Origin: Gemmatimonadota bacterium
GTDB taxonomy: Bacteria; Gemmatimonadota; Gemmatimonadetes; Longimicrobiales; Gaopeijiaceae
Direction of reading: 5' to 3'
DNA length: 49,002 bases
NCBI GenBank assembly: GCA_015664885.1
Contig: DQPL01000025.1
Span: 1 to 49,002 of the forward strand
A program made the translations under genes and the position numbers. Positions 1 through 1,051 of this stretch are shown piece after piece. Under the pieces are notes generated by a model. The model was not told the DNA's origin. It did not search any database and saw nothing but the letters and a program-made list of their open reading frames with translations. Each line of letters starts with the position of its first letter. The first letter of the stretch is position 1.

Positions 1-1051
1 ACCCGTACCATCTGGTGAAGACCTGCAGCGGACTGTCCGCCTCGATCTCCTCACCGTCCCCATTGAAGAGCAGTCCGTTCTCGATTCTTTCGCCGGTCGA
101 AAGATGCAGGACCCTGTCGTCCCACCAGACGCGGTCGGCGGTCGTGTAGTGTGCGATGAGCGCGTAGGCCGTCGGATCGTAATAGACCAGCACGGTTCGC
201 CCCTCGAACGTGTCGAGCAGCGCGCGGTCGTGCTCTTCCAGATTGGGCATCGCGTAGTACCTGGCCGCGGAGCCGTCCCAGATGCCGATCCCGAGCTCCA
301 TCGTCGGTCTGCGGTCGTCCTCTGCGCGGATCGTCCCCTTGAACTGCCCGCTAAGACCCCTCTCACCCAGGTTCGTCAGCCGTGAGAGCCACGTGCCAAC
401 CCGACGGCCAAGAGAGCGAACACCAGCGCCTCCGGGCGGACCAGATAGAGCGACCCTGGGGTGTTCGGAGATCGCCACGAGCGCTGCGTCATCTTGCGCG
501 AGTACCTGCCCCACCGTGCTATGCAGCACGTTGTAGAGCTCCAGCTTCTCGCCGGCGAGGGGCCCGTATATCGCCTCCCCCGTCATGTGATTCCAGTACG
601 TGCCGGTCTTCTCGTCGCTGAACAGGAAGAGCCCGTCGTACAGCCCGGCCAGCGCGAAGGAGCCGACCTCGTCATCGATGCGTGGGATCAGACCGATCCC
701 TGTATTGCAGATCACTCAGAAGGACACCATCCAGGGCTCTCCCCCCAGCTCTCCCTGAGCGATGTGGTGGTACGACATCTGTTCGGTCAGGAGGGCCAGA
801 CGCGTGTTGCCGCGCTTGAGGAGCAGGACGGCGGTGTCCTCGCCGACCCTCCCGTCATCGAGCGCGTCTTCGAGCGGCTCCATCTTCGTAATGGGGAACG
901 GATCGAACCCCCACACGTCACTGAGGATGGCACGGCCAGGCTCGAAGCCCGGGATTTGCTTCATCTCCTCTTGAGCCTCGGTGGAGCCGGCAAAGGCCAG
1001 CCCAGCCAGGGGGACCAGGAGAAGCGTGGAGCGGAGAGGCGTGATGCGGAT
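1..1051 (-). CDS. DUF3179-type exported protein, probable selenoprotein (3' end beyond window)
   Basis: The frame is open from about 1,130 to position 1 except for one TGA at 716-718. Before it the product reads LALLTEQMSYHHIAQ and GGEPWMVSF; after it VICNTGIGLIP, YWNHMTGEAIYGPLAGEKL, ELGIGIWDG and LQVFTRWYG. This follows the DUF3179 pattern, where the corresponding site is usually a CPLC-type CxxC, so the TGA takes the place of the first Cys and gives UxxC. The 5' end encodes a signal-peptide-like segment (RSTLLLVPLAGLAFAG) with no ATG, GTG or TTG in frame. I place the start at an ATC codon (1049-1051), which has GGAGG six bases upstream; the first in-frame ATG (964) would remove the signal peptide. 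Probably periplasmic and redox active; the family's function is not established. Only the extreme C-terminus seems to be missing. A decayed gene is the alternative, but both sides of the TGA are well conserved. Confidence 0.8.
684..718 (-). promoter_or_regulatory. Candidate Sec UGA codon with bacterial SECIS hairpin
   Basis: The TGA at 716-718 is followed, after 15 bases, by GGGATC-GGTCT-GATCCC (684-700). This is a perfect six-pair stem with a five-base GGUCU loop. The E. coli fdhF SECIS places the same GGUCU loop about 18 bases after its UGA, against 21 here, and SelB contacts that loop. The bulged U of the E. coli element is not obvious. The hairpin lies wholly inside the reading frame, as bacterial SECIS elements do. 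TGA is used as an ordinary stop by many other genes in the window, so general recoding of TGA is excluded. Confidence 0.75.

Follow-up and report, generated by a model that had tools for sequence, protein, structure and literature searches.

A predicted DUF3179 selenoprotein gene in a Gemmatimonadota bacterium and its clade of UGA-containing relatives

The window, that is, the whole 49,002-nucleotide stretch of DNA analysed here, is the entire contig C45, part of a genome of 3.96 Mb (136 contigs, 99% complete). At one end its minus strand carries a DUF3179 gene which, translated from 1051 to 2, is interrupted by one stop only, a TGA lying within the motif WMVSF-U-VIC-NTG, just as claimed by the original prediction of a single TGA in an otherwise open frame of about 350 codons. 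This TGA aside, the frame is open from about 1132 down to base 1, where the contig ends, and the length of the missing 3' end was gauged from a paralog in the same genome (Table 1). The family-like sequence said to flank the TGA is indeed there, as the Pfam model DUF3179 (PF11376) spans residues 68-298 and hence both sides of it (E 1.3e-18; 67.9 bits, above the curated cut-off of 27), while no NCBIfam model matches the protein. Furthermore, the codon-position bias is strong before and after the TGA (0.43 and 0.47), forming the strongest such pair among all TGAs of the window with long open flanks.

The span from 1 to 1051 originally given to the gene holds for the open frame on the minus strand, but not for an ordinary start codon near 1051, since the first ATG, GTG or TTG that the frame offers after the upstream TGA (1133-1135) is the ATG at 964; a start around 1051 would thus be a non-ordinary codon. 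At this very place, the ATC at 1051 with which the signal-peptide-like stretch begins, a GGAGG lies six bases ahead. This stretch of the gene has one of two explanations: a rare AUC start, or an error in the sequence.

Table 1. Features of the DUF3179 locus, in coordinates of the window
Feature	Position	Strand	Remarks
DUF3179 selenoprotein gene	2..1051	-	350 codons; 3' end (~13 codons) lost at contig end; start uncertain
UGA almost certainly read as selenocysteine	716..718	-	residue 112, first position of UxxC
Cys115, proposed resolving cysteine	707..709	-	second UxxC position; invariant in two alignments
His95	767..769	-	invariant in DUF3179; faces UxxC turn in predicted beta hairpin
Signal-peptide-like stretch IRITPLRSTLLLVPLAGLAFAGSTEAQ	971..1051	-	matches signal peptides of relatives; begins without ATG/GTG/TTG
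First repeat	482..832	-	residues 74-190; bears Sec
Second repeat	17..304	-	residues 250-345; without CxxC
SECIS-type hairpin	684..700	-	6-bp stem GGGAUC/GAUCCC; apical loop GGUCU (690-694)

Ordinary DUF3179 genes are frequent in the same class, with more than 150 matches listed, two of which contain a stop. When such genes were aligned, the first Cys of CPLC, or of a variant of it, came to lie at the TGA column, which bears out the proposal that the TGA-Val-Ile-Cys of the window gene replaces the first Cys of a CxxC motif. The window gene therefore has an in-frame UGA at the Cys column of its homologs followed by conserved coding sequence. The DUF3179 alignment has seven invariant columns, including His95, Cys/Sec112 and Cys115, and all of those tested in the window protein (H95, U112, C115, G136, D146 and W153) carry the expected residue. 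A 61-row tree groups the window protein in a clade made up entirely of Sec forms (support 100), which a branch of 2.04 separates from ordinary DUF3179. Sec/Cys changes in this tree amount to two in all, and as it is midpoint-rooted with long branches, we do not claim their direction. A second, small Sec group (L052 and L054, ATFUTLC; consensus ATF/Y-U-T-L-C-H-T-G) was placed elsewhere among the Cys forms.

The source genome holds a second DUF3179 gene, complete and on contig C114 (L014:2335-3492:-), whose product is 42% identical to the window protein and has a TGA at the same column (SFUVVC). Searching the 295 genomes of the class with both proteins returned 27 full-length strong matches, all with the TGA; one of the 27 also had a TAA just outside the conserved part, which disappeared with a better profile. 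This profile, built from 24 members, was run against the phylum (395 genomes) and picked out 28 matches above 445 bits, each with exactly one TGA; the next matches scored at most 188 bits. Together with G122 and with L059, the only relative found in a scan of genome contigs, exactly one TGA is present in 30 of 30 strong subfamily matches, and the clade shares the motif GEPW-M/L-V-S/T-F-U-x-x-C-N-T/S-G. Unrelated residues in close relatives, which the original prediction had named as contrary evidence, were not encountered: TGA stands at this column in all those that were read. A Cys form of the clade was not found among the genomes searched, and the gene neighbourhoods of the subfamily loci showed no widely recurrent partner, hence no pointer to a substrate. 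Two loci differ in their arrangement: L044 (G042:C23) has two adjoining Sec DUF3179 genes, head to tail, and L065 (7854-8345) is a Sec DUF3179 remnant lacking the first half, including the Sec site, in the same surroundings as L064.

The source genome is equipped to make and insert Sec, as all four components whose search the original prediction had proposed were found above their cut-offs: tRNA-Sec (67.9 bits; anticodon tca according to ARAGORN), SelA (545 bits), SelB (327 bits) and SelD (381 bits). Across the class, tRNA-Sec occurs in 21 of 21 genomes with a full-length member versus 221 of 295 overall (hypergeometric p 0.0018, a value to be taken as a guide only, as the genomes are related and not independent). 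A counterpoint is the relative L059, from a metagenome-assembled genome titled Chloroflexi, in whose assembly SelA is present and tRNA-Sec was not found, the best matches being tRNA-Ser. The selD gene of the source genome (L025, G000:C51) has an in-frame TGA of its own, at GTGUACK, the position where Sec-type SelD carries Sec; SelD is apparently itself a Sec protein, so that at least one further gene in this genome appears to use Sec. The tRNA-Sec gene is preceded, at a distance of about 91 bases and on its own strand, by a shortened DUF3179 gene with CPLT in place of CPLC (CxxT; L013 10240-10878, G000:C118:27239-27877), the second half of which is unlike DUF3179 and, by eye, looks like the terminal part of an outer-membrane protein.

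A hairpin with a GGUCU loop had been predicted downstream of the TGA, and it is seen as GGGAUC-GGUCU-GAUCCC, beginning 15 nt after the UGA. The rules for bacterial SECIS elements require a loop of 3-9 nt, a stem of 4-16 bp, a G in the first two loop positions, a distance of 16-37 nt from the UGA and an MFE of -7.5 kcal/mol or lower (PMC13188914), and the window hairpin agrees with all of them (5 nt, 6 bp, GGUCU, 21 nt from UGA to loop, and -13.6 kcal/mol for a 53-nt stretch). No Rfam family matches it. Taken alone, its fold does not stand out from chance (z -0.61), and full pairing also results from 14% of the synonymous recodings of the window stem; its significance comes instead from the family data. 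In 28 distinct sequences of 48 nt each, which align without gaps over the hairpin, the six-pair stem is paired in 167 of 168 cells (99.4%), compensatory changes occur at three stem pairs, some of them synonymous (GGG/GGC with ACY/ACG), and a G is found within the first two loop positions in 28/28. As this stretch is also coding, every sequence was synonymously recoded as a control: 27 of 28 sequences have full stems, whereas 2000 recodings yielded 5.4 on average and never more than 13. The SECIS check put forward at the outset speaks for the element, the stem of which covaries.

The Cys column, the conserved TGA, the Sec machinery and the covarying hairpin all agree with the claim that the window gene encodes a selenoprotein, and on these grounds Sec is almost certainly inserted at UGA 716-718. 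Our explanation as a whole, which we regard as likely, is that of an exported DUF3179 selenoprotein acting as a selenol/thiol oxidoreductase by its UxxC. SelB with charged tRNA-Sec would bind the hairpin past the UGA and insert Sec; once folded, the protein would have Sec112 and Cys115 at the turn of a beta hairpin beside the invariant His95, where Sec112 could attack and Cys115 could resolve via a selenenylsulfide bond. The place of work would be extracytoplasmic, because the starts of the relatives are signal-peptide-like, and export itself is very probable. Redox use of the UxxC, as judged from the sequence, is favoured with less assurance.

The fold was examined in two AlphaFold2 models, one for the window protein (mean pLDDT 81) and one for a canonical relative (94), and in each a single succession of strands occurs twice over. 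The two halves of canonical DUF3179 (e.g. L100:1489-2526:-) also match each other by profile (hhalign 99.1%, E 1.1e-18, 120 columns), so the family derives from a tandem duplication with CxxC in the first half only; within the Sec clade alone, profile comparison did not reveal this repeat. When the sequence was searched against solved structures, no match fell below E 0.1. In the VIA structural list, all 50 rows for both models are Rieske-type domains, which in the canonical model fall on either half. Foldseek probabilities to Rieske-type domains reach 0.98, with nothing at E <0.001 for the whole models, and the Z values of the Rieske matches, 5-8, are of the size that this tool also returns for models lacking any clear counterpart. 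The repeats of DUF3179 may have a Rieske-like fold, which we treat as a lead and not as conclusive. A likeness between CPLC and the CPLH loop of Rieske proteins was considered as homology and dropped; since the two are not in register by the aligned ranges, it is treated as coincidence.

The main rival to selenol/thiol redox is a metal site: the protein would still be a selenoprotein, of Rieske-like fold, in which Sec112, Cys115 and His95 hold a metal or metal cluster. The invariance in the DUF3179 alignment of His95, Sec/Cys112, Cys115 and Asp146 would suit such a site, as would the uniformly Rieske-type structural list and the Foldseek probabilities of up to 0.98. Yet the Z values are those of models without a clear match, the UxxC, by the aligned ranges, is off register with the Rieske ligand loops, no CxH...CxxH is conserved (the only invariant Cys/Sec positions being 112 and 115), and the second Cys is replaced by Thr in some DUF3179 forms (UxxT in reviews; CPLT in L010). 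We therefore consider a metal site unlikely, though it deserves to be taken seriously. In the window model, Sec112 ends a strand and Cys115 is part of the turn, and the strand register puts His95 across from them within this hairpin, an arrangement to which the preferred redox reading, by Sec112 and Cys115, also appeals. It is equally doubtful that DUF3179 as a whole is a duplicated Rieske-fold domain which lost its Fe-S ligands, gained a His plus Cys/Sec-x-x-Cys site along a different edge and became Sec-only in one clade; if this is true, the clade would have a redox enzyme built on a Rieske scaffold, whose Sec does not readily give way to Cys.

Readings without Sec fare far worse. One might suspect a broken gene, with the TGA a true stop or an assembly error, since the gene sits at a contig end and has no ordinary start ahead of its signal-peptide-like stretch. 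But base-by-base reading of 29 distinct sequences, from many genera, shows the TGA at the same column in every one, and protein and selection are kept beyond it: dN/dS is 0.06-0.30 after the TGA versus 0.11-0.31 before, so purifying selection downstream is as strong as upstream, which renders breakage extremely improbable. Just as improbable are two genes, the second restarting at the GTG that directly follows the TGA in the window, as this restart codon is not conserved among relatives (GTG, GCG, CCC or ATC), while the hairpin and protein motif are. Reading of TGA as an ordinary amino acid throughout the genome would also leave the frame open across it and can be dismissed as the least credible of all, given that TGA is the commonest ordinary stop (17 of 28 long coding frames of the window) and that tRNA-Sec, SelA, SelB and SelD are present.

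Selenoproteins of this family are already known: two reviews of prokaryotic selenoproteomes (PMC9312934, PMC13188914) include DUF3179 with UxxC/T, and the latter (2026) cites Zhang and Gladyshev 2007, on the Olavius algarvensis symbiont, for it. The window gene is a well-supported further member. In the literature searched, with partial coverage, we found neither a report of a DUF3179 clade with the Sec form only nor a description of the internal duplication or of the likeness to the Rieske fold. What our analysis adds to this family of unknown function is a firm selenoprotein gene, along with its paralog and about thirty relatives, and in the predicted duplicated fold a concrete lead on its role. 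As no Cys form of the clade was found among the genomes searched, this position offers a good test of why proteins keep Sec. On a practical level, gene callers that take every TGA as a stop would split such genes in two.

With regard to known systems, the window protein shares PF11376 with the catalogued DUF3179 selenoproteins, as well as Sec as the first residue of UxxC (UVIC in the window). Canonical DUF3179 (CPLC) agrees with it in the invariant columns (H-x16-C-x2-C, D, W and G) and in having two repeats, but differs by Cys in place of Sec and by an identity of only about 17-20% to the Sec clade. The predicted fold of each DUF3179 repeat recalls, over about 90 residues, the Rieske [2Fe-2S] domain, from which it departs in that the CxH...CxxH ligands are not conserved, in a match that is not statistically clear. 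In the SECIS element of E. coli fdhF, a GGUCU apical loop caps a short stem close behind the UGA. The window hairpin likewise combines a short stem and a GGUCU loop soon after its UGA, whereas within the clade this loop is shared by only part of the relatives, the others having AGUNU or AGGNU loops.
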